Source: Vicingaceae bacterium
GTDB taxonomy: Bacteria > Bacteroidota > Bacteroidia > Flavobacteriales_E > Vicingaceae
Length of the DNA: 34,356 nt
Assembly (NCBI GenBank): GCA_018402765.1
Contig: JAGYIE010000005.1
Location: 81,082 to 115,437 of the forward strand
Reading direction: 5' to 3'
Made by a program: the position numbers and the translations under genes. This document shows positions 8,866-33,151 of the stretch, in pieces. The notes under the pieces are model-generated. The model did no database searches and was not told where the DNA came from. It saw only the letters and a list, made by a program, of their open reading frames with translations. Numbering within the stretch: position 1 is the first letter of the stretch; each line of letters opens with the position of its first letter.

Positions 8866-9930
8866 ATGAAAAAATGGAATCTAGGAATTATAGGACTTAT
8901 AATAGTATTGTTTTCGAGTTGTGAAACGGATGTAGACTTGATCCAATCATATGAGCCAAATTCATTTATTTTTGGGTTATTAGATCAACATGCAGATACT
9001 CAATTTGTAAGAGTAAATAAAGCATTTTTAGGTACGCTGAGTATTGAAGAAATGGCTGCTATAGGTGATTCGATAAATTACAATCCTGGTGATTTACAAG
9101 TAGAAATTAATTTAAAATCTTATTTTAATCTACAAGGCAGAATTATAGCAGACAGAGATACCACTATCGTTCTAGAGGAGTTACAAAGGTCAAAACAAAC
9201 AGGATTCTTTAATAATGATGACTACACGGTATTTTATGCAACTACGCCATTTCCACAAGAAGAGAATAATGTAAATGTTGATTATGAATTAAAAGTTACT
9301 AACCTACGAACAGGCAAAATCATTTCAGGTAAAACTCAATTGGTGAAAGATGCACGATTATCTAGGCCAAACTCAAATTCAAGTTTAGTTTCTTTTACCA
9401 AATTGACAAATGAGGGTTATGTTTTACTTCCTTCTTTTCAGGTGGAATGGATTTCAACTGTAAATGCAGTAAAACACGAAGTGTATATGCGATTTTTTTA
9501 TGACGAGATTACACTAAGTACAAATGATACAGTAACAAATAATTCATTTGATTACTTTGTAGGTACCACTGAGAATTCAGGGGGAAATCCAGGTATTAAA
9601 ATGTTTACTAGTTTTTCTCCAATAAACTTTTACAGAGCAATTGGTCAGAAATTAGAGACAAAAACAGGAATACAACGAATAAGACCGCGCGTACAGATTT
9701 ATATGATTATGGCTAATCAAGACTTTTCTTTATACGTTGACGCTTCAGAACCATCAAACGATATAAATCAGAATAAACCAACTTATTCTAACCTATCAAA
9801 TGGATTAGGAATATTTGGGGCTAGAAATAATAGTTTCGTAACTATTAGGGACTTGCAATTTAATCAAGGAAGCTTAGAATTATTGATAAGTCTTGAGTCT
9901 ACACGTGATCTAAGCTTTAAACAGGTTTAA
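8866..9930 (+). CDS. Outer-surface or periplasmic lipoprotein, DUF4249-like
   Basis: A 354-residue protein with a lipoprotein signal: a hydrophobic stretch GLIIVLFSSC places the lipidated Cys at residue 19, followed by Glu-Thr-Asp. Thereafter it is mostly predicted beta strand, with an early segment (FIFGLLDQHADTQFVRVNKA, about 35-54) that resembles the start of Bacteroidota DUF4249-type lipoproteins. That family assignment is tentative. No enzymatic motif is seen. It is divergent from panB and lies upstream of dnaK, but dnaK has its own promoter region, so they are probably separate units. Confidence 0.78.
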   Translation: MKKWNLGIIGLIIVLFSSCETDVDLIQSYEPNSFIFGLLDQHADTQFVRVNKAFLGTLSIEEMAAIGDSINYNPGDLQVEINLKSYFNLQGRIIADRDTTIVLEELQRSKQTGFFNNDDYTVFYATTPFPQEENNVNVDYELKVTNLRTGKIISGKTQLVKDARLSRPNSNSSLVSFTKLTNEGYVLLPSFQVEWISTVNAVKHEVYMRFFYDEITLSTNDTVTNNSFDYFVGTTENSGGNPGIKMFTSFSPINFYRAIGQKLETKTGIQRIRPRVQIYMIMANQDFSLYVDASEPSNDINQNKPTYSNLSNGLGIFGARNNSFVTIRDLQFNQGSLELLISLESTRDLSFKQV

Positions 9931-9932
9931 TA

Positions 9933-9967
9933 GCTGACGTTTTGTCACGCCTTTGTCAGCCTTTTTT
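9933..9967 (+). promoter_or_regulatory. GTCA-containing inverted repeats: possible activator site or terminator
   Basis: GCTGAC (9933-9938) pairs with GTCAGC (9955-9960), and a tighter TGAC-N5-GTCA repeat sits inside (9935-9947). The outer repeat is followed by six T bases (9962-9967), so it could end the lipoprotein transcript as a weak hairpin. Alternatively, the GTCA half-sites, which recur at 9989-9992 and 10007-10010, may be binding sites for an activator acting on the sigma54-type promoter about 90 bases downstream. Sequence alone does not decide between them. Confidence 0.45.
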
Positions 9968-10022
9968 ACACAAAAATTTATCTATCGTGTCATTTTTTCA
10001 ATAAATGTCATGCAAACCCTAA

Positions 10023-10038
10023 TGGCATAGTCATTGCC
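10023..10038 (+). promoter_or_regulatory. Sigma54-type -24/-12 promoter before dnaK
   Basis: TGGCATAGTCATTGCC matches the RpoN consensus TGGCAcgnnnnTTGCw, with GG at 10024-10025 and GC at 10036-10037, the exact spacing that sigma54 requires. The predicted transcript start is about 12 bases further, near 10049, leaving a leader of about 43 bases before dnaK. No TAnnTTTG element was found in this gap. Confidence 0.6.
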
Positions 10039-10091
10039 AAAGGTGTAATGTAATAAAATGAATTGTTGAACAACTGAATAAATAATAAATT

Positions 10092-11984
10092 ATGAGTAAG
10101 ATTATTGGAATTGACTTAGGAACTACCAACTCATGTGTATCTGTAATGGAGGGTAATGAGCCTGTAGTAATTCCTAACAGCGAAGGTAAAAGAACTACAC
10201 CTTCAATTGTTGCTTTTATTGAAGGCGGCGAGAGAAAAGTAGGAGATCCTGCAAAAAGACAAGCGATCACTAACCCAACAAAAACTATAGCATCTATCAA
10301 GAGATTTATGGGTAACAAATTCAGCGAAATTGAAAAAGAAGTTGGAAGAGTTCCTTACAAAGTAGTTAAAGGCGATAACGATACTGCTAGAGTTGAGATA
10401 GACGATAGAAAGTATACTCCTCAAGAAATTTCTGCAATGATTCTTCAAAAAATGAAGAAAACTGCTGAAGATTATTTAGGAACTACTGTTTCTGAAGCAG
10501 TAATTACTGTTCCTGCTTACTTCAATGATGCACAGCGTCAAGCAACAAAAGAAGCTGGTGAAATTGCAGGATTAAAGGTAAGAAGAATCATTAACGAGCC
10601 AACTGCAGCAGCTTTAGCTTATGGAATGGATAAGAAAAGTGAAGATGTGAATATCGCTGTTTTTGACTGTGGTGGTGGTACACATGACGTTTCTATCTTA
10701 GAATTAGGTGATGGAGTATTTGAAGTGAAATCTACCGATGGTGATACTCACTTAGGTGGGGACGATTTTGACCAAGTATTAATCGACTGGTTAGCGGAAG
10801 AATTTAAAAATGATGAGGACATTGATTTAAGAAAAGATCCAATGGCTCTTCAACGTTTGAAAGAAGCTGCTGAGAAAGCAAAAATTGAATTATCTAGCTC
10901 TTCTTCTACAGAAATTAATTTACCATATGTTACAGCAACAGCTTCAGGACCAAAGCACTTAGTTAGAGCATTGTCAAAAGCAAAATTTGAGCAACTAGCT
11001 GACGAGTTAATCAAAAGAACCATAGAGCCATGTAGAACTGCTTTAAAGGCAGCTGGAATGACCGTAAACGATATTGATGAAGTTATCTTAGTAGGTGGAT
11101 CTACCAGAATACCTGCAATTCAAGAAGCGGTAAAAGCATTCTTCGGTAAAGAGCCTTCAAAAGGAGTGAATCCTGACGAAGTAGTAGCAATTGGTGCTGC
11201 TATCCAAGGTGGAGTATTGACAGGTGAAGTTAAAGATGTATTGTTATTAGATGTAACACCTTTATCTTTAGGTATTGAGACAATGGGTGGTGTAATGACT
11301 AAACTAATTGAAGCAAATACGACAATTCCAACCAAAAAGTCAGAAACGTTCTCTACTGCTTCAGACAATCAGCCTTCGGTGGAGATTCACGTATTACAAG
11401 GTGAGCGTCCGATGGCATCAGGAAACAAAACAATTGGTCGTTTTCACTTAGATGGTATTCCTCCTGCACAAAGAGGTATTCCTCAAATTGAAGTAACATT
11501 TGATATTGATGCTAATGGAATTCTAAATGTGTCTGCTAAAGATAAAGCAACTAACAAAGAGCAAAGTATCCGTATCGAAGCGTCTTCAGGTTTAAGTGAA
11601 GAAGATATTGCAAAAATGAAGCGTGATGCGGAAGAAAATGCAGAATCTGACAAAGCAGCTAAAGAAAAAGTAGACAAACTGAATCAAGCAGATTCATTGA
11701 TTTTCCAAACAGAAAAGCAATTGAAAGAGTTTGGTGACAAATTGCCTGCTGATAAGAAAGAGCCAATCGAAGCAGCTTTAGCTGAATTGAAGACAGCTTA
11801 TGAAGGTCAAGATTTAGCAGCGATAGAGCCAGCAATGGAAAAATTAAACACCATTTTCCAAGAAGCAGCTCAAACGATGTATCAGAATACTGAAGGAGCT
11901 GCGCCACAAGATGGAGCACCACAAGACTCAACTGATGAAGTTACTGATGTTGACTTTGAAGAAGTAACAGAGGATAAGAAGTAA
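10092..11984 (+). CDS. dnaK: Molecular chaperone DnaK (Hsp70)
   Basis: DnaK binds exposed hydrophobic segments of client proteins in an ATP-driven cycle with DnaJ and GrpE. The 630-residue length is normal. The ATPase domain (1 to about 385) shows [14 protein letters not shown] at the N-terminus, [20 protein letters not shown] near 137-156, [11 protein letters not shown] near 167, and [11 protein letters not shown] near 337. The substrate-binding beta domain follows (about 390-505), then the helical lid, and a C-terminal tail ending [12 protein letters not shown]. The phosphate-2 loop reads [11 protein letters not shown], with Cys193 and His198 where E. coli has Leu and Phe. The gene stands alone between a sigma54-type promoter and its own terminator; dnaJ and grpE are not next to it. 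Confidence 0.98.
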
Positions 11985-12006
11985 TCTTCTTTTAATCCAA
12001 TCTAAC

Positions 12007-12039
12007 GCCCACACTAAATTTTTAGTGTGGGCTTTTTTT
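12007..12039 (+). terminator. Rho-independent terminator of dnaK
   Basis: A 12-base inverted repeat (12007-12018 with 12021-12032) is followed by seven T bases, 23 bases after the dnaK stop. Confidence 0.93.
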
Positions 12040-12068
12040 GTGAATGAACTTATCCCGTTTATATCCGT

Positions 12069-12076
12069 TAAATTTG
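12069..12076 (+). promoter_or_regulatory. Possible -7 element (TAAATTTG) for the lycopene cyclase gene
   Basis: TAAATTTG fits TAnnTTTG and ends 23 bases before the TTG start at 12100. The nearest upstream TTTG belongs to the terminator tail and is too distant for a normal -33. Confidence 0.4.
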
Positions 12077-12099
12077 TTTTATCATTTAACTGATAGTTT

Positions 12100-13275
12100 T
12101 TGGATAGGACTACGATATACGATTTTGCTATTATTGGTTTTGGTGCTTCTGGTGCGCATTTAGCATTAGCCATGCTTAATGATCCTTTCTTTAAGGATAA
12201 ATCGATTATAATCGTTGATGAGGATATTCATAATAAAATAGACAAAAAATGGAGCTTTTGGTCTACAGATGAGGTTATTTCCTTTCCATTTTTGCAAAAG
12301 TGGAAGAAAACCAACTTCATTTCTAAGACGGTTGATCTTCAATTAGATTTAAAACCTTACATCTATTATACAGTTGATGCCAATGATTTTAAAGCCTATT
12401 GCTTAGAAAAGGTGCAACTGCATAAACAGATCTCGGTGTTGGAAGGTAAAGTATTAGAAGCTAATGAGCAGGATGAGGTTGTGGAATTGATCACTCCTCA
12501 GGGAAATGTTAAGGCTGCACAGGTTTTCGATAGTAGAATAGCAGAATCTTTCAGTCAGTATACCACAGGAATAAAATTATTACAGCATTTTAAAGGAGTA
12601 ATTATAGAAACGGAGCAGCCAACTTTTGATGCTTCCACCTTTACCATGATGGATTATCGAAAGCCGCACTGCGATTCTTGCAGTTTTATGTATGTTTTGC
12701 CATTTTCATCTCAAAGAGCATTGTTTGAGTTTACGTTCTTTAATCATTCAGTAGCAGATGAAAAAGTGTATGACCAAGCAATTACTGAGTATTTAAATGA
12801 GCATTACCCAAATTGCACTTATACTGTTGTAGAAACAGAGCAGGGAGTCATTCCAATGACGGATTATGCTTTTCATAAGGATAGCACCAATCGGATTACT
12901 AAAATAGGAACAGCAGGAGGTTGGGTGAAACCATCTACTGGGTATTCTTTTCATAATTCGCAAAAATATGCGAAGGAAATGGTTCGTCGCATTAAATCAG
13001 TGGAGCGTTTAAATAGAAGGATGGGAAAAGTAAAAGGCAGCATTTATGATACTGTATTTCTTGAAGTATTGAATCATAAGAATGAGTGGGGACCTACCTT
13101 GTTTTCTCAGATGTATTCTCGAAACAGCATTCGCACTATGTTTCGCTTTTTAGATGAGGAAACCAATTTTTTAGAAGAATTAAAGATAATGCTTTCTTTT
13201 TCTCCAATGCCCTTTTATAAGGCGATTTTACGTCTCATTGTGCGCTATATTTTTTGCCACCCAAAATCCCGTTGA
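12100..13275 (+). CDS. crtY: Lycopene beta-cyclase (CrtY/LCYb family)
   Basis: The enzyme closes the ends of lycopene into beta-ionone rings, giving beta-carotene. A dinucleotide-binding motif (FAIIGFGASGAHLALAM) lies at the N-terminus, followed by family landmarks KKWSFWS near 46-52, MDYRKPHCDSCSFMYVLPFS near 184-203, GVIPMTDYAF near 250, and GTAGGWVKPSTGYSFHNS near 269-286. Length 391 is usual. The start must be TTG at 12100: an in-frame TAG lies just upstream and no ATG occurs before the Rossmann motif. No other carotenoid gene is in the window. Its last 48 bases overlap the convergent flavoprotein gene. Confidence 0.92.
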   Translation: MDRTTIYDFAIIGFGASGAHLALAMLNDPFFKDKSIIIVDEDIHNKIDKKWSFWSTDEVISFPFLQKWKKTNFISKTVDLQLDLKPYIYYTVDANDFKAYCLEKVQLHKQISVLEGKVLEANEQDEVVELITPQGNVKAAQVFDSRIAESFSQYTTGIKLLQHFKGVIIETEQPTFDASTFTMMDYRKPHCDSCSFMYVLPFSSQRALFEFTFFNHSVADEKVYDQAITEYLNEHYPNCTYTVVETEQGVIPMTDYAFHKDSTNRITKIGTAGGWVKPSTGYSFHNSQKYAKEMVRRIKSVERLNRRMGKVKGSIYDTVFLEVLNHKNEWGPTLFSQMYSRNSIRTMFRFLDEETNFLEELKIMLSFSPMPFYKAILRLIVRYIFCHPKSR

Positions 13276-26485: not shown

Positions 26486-29400
26486 TTACTCAATTATCAG
26501 TTTCTCAATCCTTACACCATTATTATTAATTAATCTCACGAAGTATAAACCTCTTCCAACATTTAAGTTGATGTCTTTACTTAATGAACCATTAATAATT
26601 AGATTTTCGTAATAAACAACTTGACCATTAATGTTTACCACTTCTAATGTAGAATTAGGAGCAGTTACATTTTGGATTTGCAGTTTAAACTGACCATCGT
26701 TTGGATTCGGGAAGAATGAGATGATCGCATTGTTTTTAGCAACTTCATTAATTCCTACACAAATAGTTACTGTAACATTTACTGTATCAGTATTTGTACA
26801 ACCATTCGCATCCATTACTGTAACAATGTATTGAGAAATGGTATTATTTGGTGTAATCATTTGTGTGGTATCACCTGTATTCCACATATATGAAGTAAAT
26901 ACACCTGCATCTAACATAAAGCCTGCAGTATCGCAAACTATTGTATCGGGTCCAAGGTCGACAGAAGGAGTAAATACTACATCTGTATATCTCATTGGGA
27001 AGATTTGATATCCGCTAGTGTAAGGGATAGAATTGTCAAACTGTCCACCAATACCATTTACAGAACAAAGTTGATCACCTACATTGAAAGTCAAGCTATC
27101 CAATACATCAGTATCAGCATCGACTCTCATCACAAAGTTATTTGTTCCATCTGTCAAAGCTATGTTTTTAGATGAACCACTAGGTACATTTGTTACCGTT
27201 AGGTTTTCCATTCTTATTAAAGCGGACTCTGTAGACTCATCTAAAGTAGTCACCAATACATAAGGAGGAAGAGAAGCACCGGTAGAAATAATCATAATAG
27301 AATCTACTCTTATTTGAGTTAATCCATTAAATTGATCTACAAAACCTCTAACCATAATTGAGTCTCCTTCGTTAACCACGTAGTTACTTACATCTACAAA
27401 ATTGAAGATATTGATGCCTTCTGGAGTAGATGAAGACTGATCAATGATGGTAAATGAAATACCATTGTTACCGTCTAAATCAACACCTGCGACTGTTCCT
27501 GAAGTAAAACAAGTTACGTTTAATGAATCGGCCACTCCTAAAGTATCTTCTTTGTTAATCAATCCAATTGCATAATATGGAGGTTGTGCTATTGGAGGAA
27601 CTCTATTGTAGATGTTAACATTGTCGAAAGCAAATCCTTCATTGTTTACTGAACCATCAGACGCCATAACGAATCTTAACTGCACTGAAGGTAAACCACC
27701 CATACCTGTTAAGTAATGTTTGGCCGTAATCCATCCTTGACTTCCTGCGGTTCCGTCACCTGTCCATGAAGCTCCCGAACCCGTATTATCAAAAGCAGAT
27801 CGAGAAGTGTCATTGTACCAGTTTACAGTATCATTTAGTGCGCCTAGATTCAACCAAGTTGCACCTTGATCTGAAGAAACTTGCAATACTGCACCATCCC
27901 ATTGATTTTCAATATCATACCAAATATCCATTTCTAAATATGGATCAGCTACATTACTAAAATCTAAACATGGACTATTTACAAATGAAAACTCGTTGTT
28001 ATTGTACGCTCCTGTTAGGTTGGTTACCCATGCTTGAGTACCGTTAGATGCAGTATCAATAACCGAACCTGCAGGAACTCCATGAGCCCAAGAAGAATTA
28101 GTTCCGCCTGCTATCCAACTACCATTAGAAGTTTCAAAACTTTCAGTGTATGGGAAAGATACAATATTTAAAGAGCTGATGATATTGGTTGATACAATGT
28201 CATTTGTAGTATCATAATCATTTGCTAATAATGTATAAGCATCTATAGTATATGAACCTGCAGTTGATAGGTTTGTTGCAGTAGTAAATATATAATTTGC
28301 AGATGCTCCTGGAGCAATACTTCCTGTAAATGTTTCAGGTGTAATAGCAACTCCATTTACAGAATACCCAACTTGGAAGTTACTTTGAGCGGCAGCTCCA
28401 ACATTAGAAATAGTCATTTCTACGGAACTTGTTGCACTTAAACCACAACCACTTGTAGGGCTAACAATAGCTGTAGCAGCTAAGTTATTAGCAGGGGCTT
28501 CTTTAATGGAAACATCATCAATAGCTTGGTCTCCTAGCCACATTGATATTGTATTACCTGCACTTGAAGCTCTAAATCTAACTTTCACATCACCTGAATT
28601 GTATGTATAATTAGAAAGGTCATATCCAAAAGACATCCATCCATTCGTATTCTGCTGAATTGAATCAATGATCACAAAGTTTGTGCTGTCAAATGCTTCT
28701 ACATACAATTTGTTAATTGGTGAATAACCTATACCACACATTGCGAAGTAAAATTCTAAATATGGATTAGTTAGCGTAGAAACGTTTACTACAGGCATTT
28801 CTAATACTACGTCAACAACACCTGTTCCTGAGAAATCTAAAGCTGCAAAGCTTCCTGAGTTTCCGGTGTGATCAGTTGGTACAAATGAACAGCCAGTGGT
28901 ATTCCATGAAAATCCAGGAGCACCAAATACCCAAGGTCCGTCTTGTACTGCGCTTTGTGACCAGCAATCAGGTGTGGTATTTCCATCAAATGTTTGAGTA
29001 TATGGAGCGGTGTAAGCAGAGGGACAACCTACATCTATTGTATAATCTTCATAAGACCCCCATGATCCTGTATAACATGGAGTCGGAGGGCCAACGTCCG
29101 TGCCTCCAATTCTCATTCTGTATTGTCCAAAAGGAATATTAGAAGGAACTGTCCAAGATGCTGTTAATGTAGTCGGATTTGTTGCTAAAGAGACTCCTGA
29201 ATACACATTTTCTAAGGTATCGTCAAAATCTAAATCGTTATTCCAATCAACCCATATTTCGGTTACATAGGTATAACCTGTTGCATAGGTAATGTCAATA
29301 TTAACAGTTGAGCCTTGACCAACAGCACCAATTATTGCGCTATAGTCACCATAGTTACCCGGCTCTGCACCTGTAGTATTATTAACAGTATCAAATGCAA

Positions 29401-32400
29401 CATTGACAATCCCGTTTCCATCAACCGATGAAGGAGCAGGAATACAATATCCTGTATAAAATGATGATTGAACTGATGAAGTTGTGTCGCCTACAGAACA
29501 AATAGCTCTTACATACCAATCATAGGTTGTATTCGCAGTTAATCCTGTGATGCTTGCAGTATTTGTAGTCACGATTACTGAGGTTCCTGTACCTGGACTA
29601 AATCCTGCTGTATCATACTCAACTTCCCAAGTTGCAGAAGGGTTAATGTCAACCCAGTTTAAATCTACGGATGTAGGTGTTAAGTTAGCAATTGAAGGAG
29701 CGGAAGGCTGGAAACAACTAGGAGGTAAGCTTAAACTAACATCATCAACAGCTAAATCTCCTGTAAATGAAGAACCCCTTGTACCAACAAATTTTATTTT
29801 TGCAAGTTTTCCTTGTAATCCTGAAATAACATGTGCGTTTAATTTCCAAGCATCGCTTTGATTTGGTTGTTGTTGTCCAATTAAAGAACCTAATGGGATT
29901 AGTGTACCATTGGTATCAATAAAGACTTCTAAGGATCCTGTTGTAGCGCCATACATGTGATACCAATATTCAAGGTAAACAGTTGTATCATTATTTCCAA
30001 TTAGAATACTTGGTGAAACCAATGTATCCGAATTCCCAATAGAGCCTCCAGACGTCTCTAAGAAAACAAATGTTCCTCCTGCTCCAATCGTATGGTCTGC
30101 AGTTGGTCCTGTACTTGGAGAAGGGGTAGATGATCCTGACTGAAAACGTGGATTAGATGTAGCTGTTCTTGACCAACCGTTTGCACTAATTGTAGTGCTA
30201 GTTCCAAAAGTCTGAAAATCTTCGATATATGGAAATGCTTCAGGAGCTACAAATTCTATCGCACCTATATCTGGTGTTGACGTGCTTCTTGTATTTCCAA
30301 AAATATCCGATGTCAAACCTGGTATTGGAGTTCCTTTATTGTCTAAAGAATCTGATAAAGGAGTTAAATCACCATTAACTGCGTCAATAAACATTGGATC
30401 ATCACTAAATGAATTAATATTCAATGTTGCATTTCCTGCTTTGAATGCTGCAAGATCAGTATATACAGGTGTTCCAAACTTTGCTAAGTTAGTTCCACTT
30501 GTATAGTAAATGTTGTAATCCAAAACTATGGGGTTTGCATCAAGACTGTAAAATGCGTAATCCCCACCTGAACTAGAAAAAATATTATTTCTGATGTCTA
30601 AGTTGGCATCATCATTCATGTATAATCCGTAGTCGGCTGCTGAAGTTGTGTTATGATAAATATTTACTTCCTCTACATCATCTAAATAAAGGCCATCATC
30701 ACCACCAATAAATATGTTATTGGCAATTAGTGATTTTGAAGTTACAGGATTATCAAAATTATAATCATTTGCTTCCAAACCATTGTCACCGCCTTCAAAT
30801 CGGTTACCTGTGATAATAAAGTTTTCCAAGTCAGAAGAATACATTCCATCACTAAATGAGCTGGTAAGACCATCTACGAAATTGTCTGTGATAGCCACAT
30901 CGTTATAACCTGTTATGTACAGACCATTATCGTCAGCGTTTAATATTACGTTGTTGTGTACTACTAAATGTTGACTTCTAGCACTAGCGGTAAAGCTACC
31001 ATAAACGGATATACCTCTTTCTCCACCTGTTACAAAATTGTTTGAAATTGTTAAACTGTCCACGTCTGCCGTAGAGTTATCACTGGTTTCAGAGTTTGAA
31101 ATCATTATACCCGCGACATCAGAACTTGTTCCAATTGGCATCGTTACAATATTATGATCTATGGTAATATTATTTGCCCCGTTCCAGATATGAATACCCC
31201 ACTTGTCAAAACCTGTACCTGCAAGAACTTCAATGGTTAAATTTCTTATCGTAAGAAATGTTGTACCATCTATATTTATAGTTGATGCCCTAACAGATTG
31301 ATCATGAGAAATTATCGTATTTGATGCTACTCCTCCATCTATAGTTATAGTGTTTGTTGCACTAACCCCAGGTATTATTCCAAATGATACTTGATCATTG
31401 TAAGTTCCAGGTGCTATGTTTACGGTAACCGGACCACTTACTCCAACATTTGAAGCAAGATTTGCGAAGTCAGATAAGCTTAAAAAGTTTGTGCCTCCTG
31501 ATGCAATAGCAGAATCAATAGTGTAGGTTCCACTCATTGGAAGTCCCACAAAGAAGTTATTTACATTACTCCAATCACTAGAATCACCAACAGCGCAAAT
31601 ACTTCTTACATACCAATCGTAAGATGCGTAGGTTGAAAGACCTGACAAAGTGAATGGATTTGTAACACTTGTAGATACTCGAGTACCTGTTCCTAATGTA
31701 AACCCTGCGATACCATACTCAAATTCCCAAGCGGTAGCAGCACCATTTTCTGTCCATCCTAAAGTAGCTGAAGTATTGGTAATGTTTGTTGCAGCAAGTG
31801 CTGATGGTTTAGGACATGATACGCAAGTAGTAACTTCTACTAGATCAATAGCCATATCTCCCGTAAAACTGGATCCTCTTGTGCTTTTGAATTCTAAATA
31901 AATTTGTTGACCAACATAAACATCTAAATTAACACCTACATTAATAAATGGATCTGTATCTGAAGTTTGGATTTGTCCACTACTCGTAAATACATTTGTA
32001 AAAGGACCTGTTGCAGATGTGCTAACTCCAACTTCAAGTGAGCCAATTGTAGCACCGTAGGCATGATACCAAAAAGAGAGCTCTGCACTTGAGGTACCTG
32101 ATGATAAGTCAATTAATGGTGATATGGCTGAAGTTGTGGCACCTAGGGTGCCTGAAGAGGTTTCAACATATAAATAATTTGAACCACTATGTGCAGAACT
32201 TGGACCTGTGCCAAAAGAACCGGTTCCATTTGCATCATAAACCCATCCATAAGTAAAGGTTGAAGTGCCTACACTTCCCGTCCATCCGCCTACAGTTTCA
32301 AAGTCGTCTGAAAATACAATCTGAGGACCACCTGTAATACAATTTACACCTTGTGCAGTTTGAATCAATGTACTAAAACTTGCAGGAGTTGACCATGGAC

Positions 32401-33151
32401 TAGTATCACCTACTGCACAAATACTTCTTACTGTCCAATCGTATGCTGAGTTGCTCATTAATCCCGACAATACTGCTGATTGGCTTGATGCCAGCATTTT
32501 AGTGCCTGAACCAACTGTATAACCTGAAGGGCCAAATTCATATTGCCAAGCAGTCGATGTTCCTGACTCTACCCAACCTATTGTAGCTGAGTCGGCTGTA
32601 ATATTTGAAGATGTTAAAGCCAAAGGCTCAGGACAATTTGGTAGTGCACTGTAATAAGCTATCACTTCCCAAGTACTGTCAACTACAAAATTATAAGTTG
32701 TATTGCAACCCGAACCTCCCCATGTTCTACCTAGTTCTAGTTGAATTAAAACGGTATCCGTTGCTCCATTTGCAAACGTAAGCCCCGTTCTTGTATAACT
32801 AAATGTTCCACCTGAAAATCCTGACCCACTGAATAGAGTTCCTTCTGCGGATGCTGTAGAAGTCGAAGATAATCTAGAACGCTGCTCAGACATGTAAGCT
32901 CCTGATATGGCAGTAACATCATAGCTTGTAGAAATACTATCTATTCTATTTCCTGACGGAATAATAAGTGATAGCGTTCCCGGGCAACTGGAGCTACCCG
33001 CCGATGAAGTAAAAGAATAATCTGAATCAATAGTTCCTAATTGATAGGTGGCACAGATAGCACCCGGAGGGCATTGTGCTTTAGAATTGTTGATATTAGC
33101 TAAAAGCCCCACAAATGCGGCGATAGCATACAAAAAGGTATTTCTTCTCAT
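26486..33151 (-). CDS. Giant multidomain T9SS-exported adhesin-like protein
   Basis: A 2221-residue exported protein. In order (approximate residues): signal peptide 1-26; beta-rich head 27-170; fibronectin III-like domain 172-262; cleaved-adhesin/MAM-like jelly roll (choice-of-anchor J type) 270-440; second FN3 445-535; right-handed parallel beta-helix 580-885 with repeated N-asn-x-hydrophobic turns; second jelly roll 966-1140; third FN3 1145-1230; GEVED-type domain 1240-1377 (WVDWNNDLDFDD); third jelly roll 1380-1550; CARDB-like strand domain 1550-1660; fourth jelly roll 1660-1850; OB-fold-like or DUF5689-like region 1855-2060; Ig-like SVDLGPD domain 2064-2135; and a T9SS type A tail from 2144 (FFPNPNDG) to the end. 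No catalytic motif is seen. A well-spaced promoter lies upstream at 33230-33260. A second copy lies upstream. Confidence 0.93.
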   Translation of the reverse strand: MRRNTFLYAIAAFVGLLANINNSKAQCPPGAICATYQLGTIDSDYSFTSSAGSSSCPGTLSLIIPSGNRIDSISTSYDVTAISGAYMSEQRSRLSSTSTASAEGTLFSGSGFSGGTFSYTRTGLTFANGATDTVLIQLELGRTWGGSGCNTTYNFVVDSTWEVIAYYSALPNCPEPLALTSSNITADSATIGWVESGTSTAWQYEFGPSGYTVGSGTKMLASSQSAVLSGLMSNSAYDWTVRSICAVGDTSPWSTPASFSTLIQTAQGVNCITGGPQIVFSDDFETVGGWTGSVGTSTFTYGWVYDANGTGSFGTGPSSAHSGSNYLYVETSSGTLGATTSAISPLIDLSSGTSSAELSFWYHAYGATIGSLEVGVSTSATGPFTNVFTSSGQIQTSDTDPFINVGVNLDVYVGQQIYLEFKSTRGSSFTGDMAIDLVEVTTCVSCPKPSALAATNITNTSATLGWTENGAATAWEFEYGIAGFTLGTGTRVSTSVTNPFTLSGLSTYASYDWYVRSICAVGDSSDWSNVNNFFVGLPMSGTYTIDSAIASGGTNFLSLSDFANLASNVGVSGPVTVNIAPGTYNDQVSFGIIPGVSATNTITIDGGVASNTIISHDQSVRASTINIDGTTFLTIRNLTIEVLAGTGFDKWGIHIWNGANNITIDHNIVTMPIGTSSDVAGIMISNSETSDNSTADVDSLTISNNFVTGGERGISVYGSFTASARSQHLVVHNNVILNADDNGLYITGYNDVAITDNFVDGLTSSFSDGMYSSDLENFIITGNRFEGGDNGLEANDYNFDNPVTSKSLIANNIFIGGDDGLYLDDVEEVNIYHNTTSAADYGLYMNDDANLDIRNNIFSSSGGDYAFYSLDANPIVLDYNIYYTSGTNLAKFGTPVYTDLAAFKAGNATLNINSFSDDPMFIDAVNGDLTPLSDSLDNKGTPIPGLTSDIFGNTRSTSTPDIGAIEFVAPEAFPYIEDFQTFGTSTTISANGWSRTATSNPRFQSGSSTPSPSTGPTADHTIGAGGTFVFLETSGGSIGNSDTLVSPSILIGNNDTTVYLEYWYHMYGATTGSLEVFIDTNGTLIPLGSLIGQQQPNQSDAWKLNAHVISGLQGKLAKIKFVGTRGSSFTGDLAVDDVSLSLPPSCFQPSAPSIANLTPTSVDLNWVDINPSATWEVEYDTAGFSPGTGTSVIVTTNTASITGLTANTTYDWYVRAICSVGDTTSSVQSSFYTGYCIPAPSSVDGNGIVNVAFDTVNNTTGAEPGNYGDYSAIIGAVGQGSTVNIDITYATGYTYVTEIWVDWNNDLDFDDTLENVYSGVSLATNPTTLTASWTVPSNIPFGQYRMRIGGTDVGPPTPCYTGSWGSYEDYTIDVGCPSAYTAPYTQTFDGNTTPDCWSQSAVQDGPWVFGAPGFSWNTTGCSFVPTDHTGNSGSFAALDFSGTGVVDVVLEMPVVNVSTLTNPYLEFYFAMCGIGYSPINKLYVEAFDSTNFVIIDSIQQNTNGWMSFGYDLSNYTYNSGDVKVRFRASSAGNTISMWLGDQAIDDVSIKEAPANNLAATAIVSPTSGCGLSATSSVEMTISNVGAAAQSNFQVGYSVNGVAITPETFTGSIAPGASANYIFTTATNLSTAGSYTIDAYTLLANDYDTTNDIVSTNIISSLNIVSFPYTESFETSNGSWIAGGTNSSWAHGVPAGSVIDTASNGTQAWVTNLTGAYNNNEFSFVNSPCLDFSNVADPYLEMDIWYDIENQWDGAVLQVSSDQGATWLNLGALNDTVNWYNDTSRSAFDNTGSGASWTGDGTAGSQGWITAKHYLTGMGGLPSVQLRFVMASDGSVNNEGFAFDNVNIYNRVPPIAQPPYYAIGLINKEDTLGVADSLNVTCFTSGTVAGVDLDGNNGISFTIIDQSSSTPEGINIFNFVDVSNYVVNEGDSIMVRGFVDQFNGLTQIRVDSIMIISTGASLPPYVLVTTLDESTESALIRMENLTVTNVPSGSSKNIALTDGTNNFVMRVDADTDVLDSLTFNVGDQLCSVNGIGGQFDNSIPYTSGYQIFPMRYTDVVFTPSVDLGPDTIVCDTAGFMLDAGVFTSYMWNTGDTTQMITPNNTISQYIVTVMDANGCTNTDTVNVTVTICVGINEVAKNNAIISFFPNPNDGQFKLQIQNVTAPNSTLEVVNINGQVVYYENLIINGSLSKDINLNVGRGLYFVRLINNNGVRIEKLIIE
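26492..27472. repeat. Long direct repeat, copy A (3' part of the giant adhesin gene)
   Basis: This stretch matches 33376-34356 at a fixed offset of 6884 bases. The first 525 bases (26492-27016) are identical to 33376-33900 when compared by eye; about 16 substitutions, clustered in a few spots, fall in the remaining 456 bases. The match runs to the window edge, so its full length is unknown. Confidence 0.95.

Follow-up and report, generated by a model that had tools for sequence, protein, structure and literature searches.

Introduction

The textbook heat-shock routes of other phyla are HrcA/CIRCE and sigma32, and the gap before the dnaK gene of a Vicingaceae bacterium (genome of 3.1 Mb in 16 contigs) raises the question of whether this gene is driven by sigma54 (RpoN) and an activator, as a preliminary description of the locus had claimed, and which protein would act as that activator. 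The window analyzed here is the whole stretch of 34,356 bases that carries dnaK, and it was compared with related genomes and with the open-licence literature. In the literature searched, the induction of Bacteroidota chaperones without HrcA is little described, no naming of a chaperone activator or of a TGNCA site in this phylum was found, and the word rpoN is absent from the main text of three Bacteroides thetaiotaomicron transcriptome papers (PMC7366714, PMC10994844, PMC12596196).

Sigma54-type chaperone promoters are already known in the phylum from Flavobacterium psychrophilum, in which starts bearing a sigma54 motif were mapped in 2021 at groES-groEL, lon, dnaK, grpE-dnaJ, htpG, clpB and skp (PMC9723704), with groES-groEL, lon, dnaK, grpE-dnaJ and htpG forming one co-expression cluster (PMC9723704). 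The arrangement that the preliminary description could not confirm as described had thus been reported, with a mapped dnaK start (PMC9723704). According to the sections of that paper drawn on here, the promoter that was mutated is that of a gliding operon and not that of dnaK, three proteins with the sigma54 interaction domain (PF00158) are encoded, and the authors leave the activators open (PMC9723704). These promoters, called SM4, share with those described below the -24/-12 motif, the chaperone targets and the number of three PF00158 proteins; they differ in belonging to another genus, and an upstream box is not described in section 15 of PMC9723704. A matrix study of 2025 found predicted sigma54 control of GroEL, GroES, IbpA, GrpE, DnaJ and DnaK to be enriched in Bacteroidota and Planctomycetota (PMC12316311), the same target class, its regulons resting on matrix prediction in the part of the paper concerned; there, the statement on sigma54-dependence of grpE/groES cites reference 80, a Blattabacterium paper, which looks misplaced. 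Set against the text of the F. psychrophilum report, three features are new, namely the relaxed -12 box with its TTGA, the distances of the upstream boxes and the candidate activator, and the sigma54 answer, so far given for one Flavobacterium, is extended here to 31 genera for dnaK.

A sigma54-type element in the gap before dnaK

The gap and its promoter features are the following (coordinates of the window):

9931-10091: gap of 161 bases between the preceding gene and dnaK
10023-10037, + strand: putative sigma54-type -24/-12 promoter of dnaK, TGGCATAGTCATTGC, conserved in 38/40 dnaK upstream sequences
10049, + strand: predicted transcription start, 12 bases past the -12 C, from the usual sigma54 geometry
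10092-11984, + strand: dnaK, 630 aa, with full-length matches of 69-96% identity in 39/40 other genomes

Both dinucleotides that had been claimed at exact -24/-12 spacing are present in TGGCATAGTCATTGC, GG at 10024-10025 and GC, the textbook form at -12, at 10036-10037, and transcription from sigma54 promoters usually starts 12 bases after the -12 C. The spacer had been given as N8; the real spacing is TGGC-N7-TTGC, one base shorter, and a search for TGGC-N8-TTGC with at most one mismatch returned 22 matches against 20.8 expected, the dnaK site not being among them. The corrected pattern has a single occurrence on both strands of the 34,356 bases, and the bare GG-N10-GC occurs 53 and 43 times on the two strands, so that the window alone is insufficient and the question of chance is settled by conservation across genomes.

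Other kinds of regulatory element were also searched for. As had been stated, no TAnnTTTG lies on the + strand of 9931-10091, the nearest stretch having two mismatches, and a sigmaA promoter in the gap is ruled out on this basis. The reported lack of a CIRCE element or sigma32 box was borne out as well, the best CIRCE-like stretch in the gap having 9 mismatches and the best sigma32-like one 5 against the consensus strings used, with sigma32 scored at one fixed spacer. An Rfam scan of 9000-12500 gave no match near the gathering score, and a sigma70-type scan gave 3 matches against 2.4 in shuffles.

Conservation across relatives

Sequences upstream of dnaK were taken from the Vicingaceae genome and 39 relatives (40 sequences, 31 genera); a 41st genome (G003, 66% complete) was left out, being without a full dnaK. 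Conservation of the motif before dnaK in relatives had been proposed as a check; the pattern TGG[CT][AG]-N7-TG is found in 38 of the 40, against a mean of 1.24 and a maximum of 4 in 100 shuffles, a comparison that overstates significance because the genomes are kin. A chance match as the source of the element is ruled out by this difference, and the -24/-12-type element before dnaK is confirmed as a real observation at the level of sequence. The two upstream sequences without it belong to a fragmented genome with a dnaK flank unlike the others (L014) and to the genome with the most distant dnaK of the set, at 69% identity (L041). The gap between TGG[CT][AG] and [AT]TG peaks at 6 bases for dnaK, htpG and grpE (38, 20 and 30 occurrences); the runner-up counts are 4 for htpG and 6 for grpE, and dnaK has a second peak at 13 bases (14 occurrences), its remaining gaps being found 0 to 5 times each.

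Comparable elements before further chaperone genes

Elements of this type also stand before groESL, grpE-dnaJ, htpG and clpB, which points to a chaperone regulon of the lineage. In the Vicingaceae genome they read:

dnaK: TGGCATAGTCATTGCC
groES: TGGCATAAAATATGAC
grpE: TGGCAAAAAAGTTGAC
htpG: TGGTACATGCTTTGAA
clpB: TGGAGACTCATTTGAT

A search for the motif before groES, clpB and hsp20 of related genomes had also been proposed. Of the 40 pieces, 16 contained groES, the Vicingaceae genome included, and TGG[CT][AG]-N7-TG is present in 15 of these (shuffle mean 0.49, maximum 3). Among titled genome records, the same pattern is found before groES in 23/44 (shuffle mean 1.07, maximum 4) and, with the -12 box cut to its G, in 44/44 (shuffle mean 0.71, maximum 4), a figure that is partly fitted, as the looser pattern was devised after viewing the misses. 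At clpB, for which 20 genomes were sampled, TGG-N8-TTG is found in 18 (shuffle mean 0.51, maximum 4), mainly as TGGA-N7-TTGA. For hsp20, 18/30 upstream sequences of relatives match (shuffle mean 2.5, maximum 7), with starts unlocated and no preferred box offset, so that these matches are given no weight, and an HSP20 gene is absent from the Vicingaceae genome.

The pattern TGG[CT][AG]-N7-TG precedes grpE in 27/28 sequences (shuffle mean 2.23, maximum 6), L114 being the sole miss, in a sample of 27 out of 30 loci plus the Vicingaceae locus from which L116, L117 and L122 were dropped for want of a start motif. It precedes htpG in 19/22 (shuffle mean 0.67, maximum 4), the sample being 22 of 30 loci after eight were dropped for the same reason. 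In a control set of clpC, whose identity was judged from three proteins, the element is found in 1/30 upstream sequences.

Searched genome-wide, the motif TGGCAYANNNNTTGM shows no enrichment (3 matches versus 5 for the reversed control), its three matches lying at dnaK, inside a large frame and about 425 bases before a frame. The form TGGCA-N7-TGAC occurs 9 times in the Vicingaceae genome versus 13 for the reversed control; two of these sites lie just before groES and grpE, and the other seven are inside frames. The grpE site falls in an in-frame extension of the grpE frame, which was taken as non-coding.

Upstream TGNCA boxes and their spacing

The GTCA half-sites that had been described upstream of the promoter are all present, namely TGAC-N5-GTCA at 9935-9947 and GTCA at 9955, 9989 and 10007, and further GTCA occur at 9944 and 10030, the latter within the promoter. 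They belong to the following boxes, to which no strand is assigned and whose offsets are counted upstream from the TGG of the promoter:

9935-9947: distal inverted repeat TGAC-N5-GTCA, candidate activator site, starting 88 bases upstream of TGGCA
9954-9958: TGTCA box at offset 69
9988-9999: proximal box TGTCATTTTTTC, starting 35 bases upstream of TGGCA
10006-10010: TGTCA box at offset 17, an offset found 5 times over 38 dnaK and 16 times over 19 htpG promoters

Counted from the predicted start, the distal repeat spans -114 to -102. Its general form TGNC-N5-GNCA is present in 29/38 dnaK upstream sequences within the segment from 125 to 51 bases before the promoter (shuffle mean 0.36, maximum 3), at offsets of 86-91 in 18 occurrences and of 76-79 in 8, about one turn apart. 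Enhancers usually sit at about the distance of this repeat; the proximal boxes center near -45, which is unusually close.

Closer to the promoter, TGNCA lies at offset 35 (21 occurrences) or 36 (9) over the 38 dnaK promoters and at 35 (8) or 36 (3) over 18 clpB promoters, at 25 over 27 grpE promoters (19), and at 17 (16) or 25 (6) over the 19 htpG promoters. The pair 25/17 arises because these are the two halves of TGNCA-N3-TGNCA, and offsets 25 and 35 differ by 10 bases, one helical turn, a step that suggests a protein bound to one fixed face of the helix. No common TGNCA offset was found before groES of the relatives, the top count being 2/15 and, in titled records, 7/23 at offset 17; in the Vicingaceae genome the groES box has offset 36. 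By their sequence and position, the TGNCA boxes are read as putative activator-type sites before a sigma54-type promoter.

A candidate activator encoded with groESL

Three proteins of the Vicingaceae genome match the sigma54 interaction domain (PF00158) strongly, five weaker matches being other AAA+ proteins by score. One of the three has a receiver and a helix-turn-helix (HTH), and the other two are:

L055:4384-5640: groESL-linked enhancer-binding protein, 418 residues, PF00158 E = 4.4e-65
L053:4110-5276 (contig G000:C10): enhancer-binding protein with receiver and AAA+, without HTH, about 4 kb from grpE-dnaJ

A candidate for the AAA+ activator that the preliminary description had proposed to look for is thus encoded beside groESL, in a form without a receiver: Sigma54_activat comes first, followed by the AAA lid and a C-terminal Fis HTH (HTH_8 at 373-413), with about 115 residues between lid and HTH. 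Its GAFTGA-type loop reads GSFTGA in 11/11 aligned sequences and GAFTGA in the Bacteroides fragilis locus L231, the HTH is well conserved in the 11 aligned sequences, and the fold prediction, with a mean pLDDT of 50, was set aside. PspF is also without a receiver, and the GTCA-N3-TGAC core of NorR sites resembles TGNCA-N3-TGNCA. Proteins of the PspF/NorR type share the AAA+ plus HTH architecture and the upstream sites with the candidate, which differs from them in the stretch between lid and HTH and in its predicted targets, the chaperone genes; NorR needs three enhancer sites in the account given in PMC2941729.

The gene order is miaB, activator, lptE, a TPR gene, secG, groES and groEL, the names miaB, lptE, secG and groES having been assigned from motifs or sequence. 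Matches to the activator at E <= 1e-60 are found in 40/41 genomes and in 38/38 near-complete ones, two of the best matches spanning only part of the query. In 44 of 80 titled loci, some of them partial, the activator is followed on its own strand by groES at a distance of 2.9-5.3 kb, as found with a pattern that misses divergent genes such as that of L205, and groEL lies downstream in 43 of the 68 titled loci that have 5.5 kb of downstream sequence. In L231 the activator, lptE, TPR gene and secG are together, and groES is not within the downstream piece. A pair of sigma54 regulator and lptE is placed under an SM5 promoter in F. psychrophilum, the passage concerned making no link to chaperones (PMC9723704). 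A hairpin follows secG in L055 and several relatives and holds TGTCA-N3-TGTCA in several genomes; the farther palindromes before groES overlap this hairpin and were for that reason left uncounted. Judged by its sequence, the hairpin could double as a groES activator site.

At the head of the activator operon, TGNCA-N3-TGNCA stands before miaB in 21/21 genomes of the set and in 44/45 titled loci (pooled 65/66, versus a shuffle mean of 0.26 and maximum of 3). In 17/21 a TAnnTTTG follows 22-33 bases further on, which places the palindrome over the -33 region; in L055 the promoter reads TTTG-N20-TAATTTTG, and TGCCATTTTGTCA overlaps its -33 region. This position suggests autorepression. Nevertheless, of 35 titled loci in which no miaB was found upstream, most of them with Bacteroidales or Bacteroidetes in the title, only 1 has the palindrome at 300 bases or less from the activator gene, which argues against simple autoregulation; the palindrome may serve miaB, or only certain lineages may have the feedback.

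The groESL-linked protein is considered the likeliest activator, and on balance it probably binds the TGNCA boxes. The main rival explanation accepts the sigma54-type promoter and assigns the boxes to another regulator, with another enhancer-binding protein activating transcription. Two further enhancer-binding proteins do exist, one of them near grpE-dnaJ, and the single palindrome among the 35 loci without miaB indicates that the site before miaB is not simply tied to the activator gene. The protein near grpE-dnaJ is, however, without an HTH, whereas the groESL-linked one is found in nearly all genomes, has a well conserved HTH and is clustered with groESL; a different regulator is therefore regarded as possible, if rather doubtful. 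In at least six relatives, second-rank matches to the activator also lie at a distance of 5-11 kb from grpE.

The -12 box, RpoN and the remaining alternatives

Of the 38 dnaK promoters, 29 have A after the conserved -12 G, 4 have T, 3 have C and 2 have G. The -12 C is present in 5/27 grpE, 1/19 htpG and 12/44 groES (titled records) elements, A is the commonest base in other gene sets too, and the element common to dnaK, htpG and grpE is TGG[C/T]A-N6-TTGA. An rpoN gene, whose presence had been named as a check on the sigma54 claim, is found in the Vicingaceae genome; its product can be aligned over almost its whole length to sigma54 chains of solved structure, and the RpoN box is retained as ARRTVAKYRE. 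Comparing the presence or absence of rpoN with the motif gave no contrast, since 294/296 genomes of a phylum sample carry the gene. The element is read as a putative sigma54 promoter with a relaxed -12 box (TTGA), and this is not taken to prove that RpoN itself has changed.

The same letters could be taken for a TGNCA-N7-TGNCA operator of a dimeric regulator acting on another promoter. The sites of the window and of L003 do read TGGCA-N7-TGCCA, a perfect dyad, that of Vicingaceae groES reads TGGCATAAAATATGACA, and the bases after TTG at dnaK are mostly A (29/38) and then C (31/38), as in a TGNC half-site. Starts at the same genes in F. psychrophilum nevertheless bear the -24/-12 motif, as mapped in PMC9723704; the + strand of the dnaK gap offers no TAnnTTTG; the second base after TTG is C in only 8/27 grpE and 5/19 htpG elements; and clpB, mostly TGGA-N7-TTGA, has no dyad. 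On the grpE, htpG and clpB sequences the dyad was rejected in place of -24/-12, and such an operator is improbable. Control of dnaK by HrcA/CIRCE or sigma32, with a coincidental sigma54 match, has in its favor that these are the textbook routes to the same target genes elsewhere, and was rejected as extremely improbable in view of HrcA being found in 0/41 genomes, of neither box being present in the gap (9 and 5 mismatches at best) and of the conserved -24/-12 element. For sigma32, it also counts against this explanation that the sigma factors listed for F. psychrophilum comprise sigmaA, a single sigma54 and seven of the ECF type, with no others (PMC9723704).

Proposed control of the chaperone regulon

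The claimed control of dnaK by sigma54 and an activator is supported, at the sequence level, by rpoN, the conserved promoter and the boxes. The gap before dnaK very probably contains an RpoN-dependent promoter with activator boxes, and the chaperone regulon of the lineage would be under the groESL-linked activator, the sigma54 route standing in for HrcA/CIRCE, which is absent, and probably for sigma32. RpoN-bearing RNA polymerase would form closed complexes at the -24/-12 elements of the chaperone promoters, and these would be opened by an AAA+ enhancer-binding protein once it occupies TGNCA-N3-TGNCA sites. At dnaK, the distal inverted repeat and the phased proximal TGNCA box would serve this activator, most likely the 418-residue receiver-less protein from the groESL cluster, and the signal may be heat or free chaperone.

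A wider proposal, put forward tentatively and at somewhat less than even confidence, is that the receiver-less protein is the master heat-shock activator, widely kept in Bacteroidota, inhibited by chaperone and self-dampening where miaB heads the operon. It would act from helically phased TGNCA-N3-TGNCA sites before the relaxed (TTGA) promoters of dnaK, groESL, grpE-dnaJ, htpG and clpB; free chaperone would hold it off; and, in lineages in which miaB heads the operon, it would dampen its own expression through the TGNCA-N3-TGNCA lying over the -33 element. If true, sigma54 would serve the heat-shock response with the rank of a housekeeping factor, and the nearly universal presence of rpoN in the phylum sample would be accounted for. 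The box geometry, one gene and one DNA site provide directly testable leads.

Other features noticed

Two adjoining large Hsp70-like open frames of 847 and 818 aa lie at G000:C10:14003-17761 in the Vicingaceae genome, with 34% and 30% identity to the Vicingaceae DnaK. Toward the end of the window, on the - strand, are found:

26486-33151, - strand: surface-type protein of 2221 residues
33370-34263, - strand, at the window end: frame of 297 aa, by eye almost identical to the C-terminal part of the 2221-residue protein

These two frames have the appearance of a tandem duplication that is truncated where the window stops.
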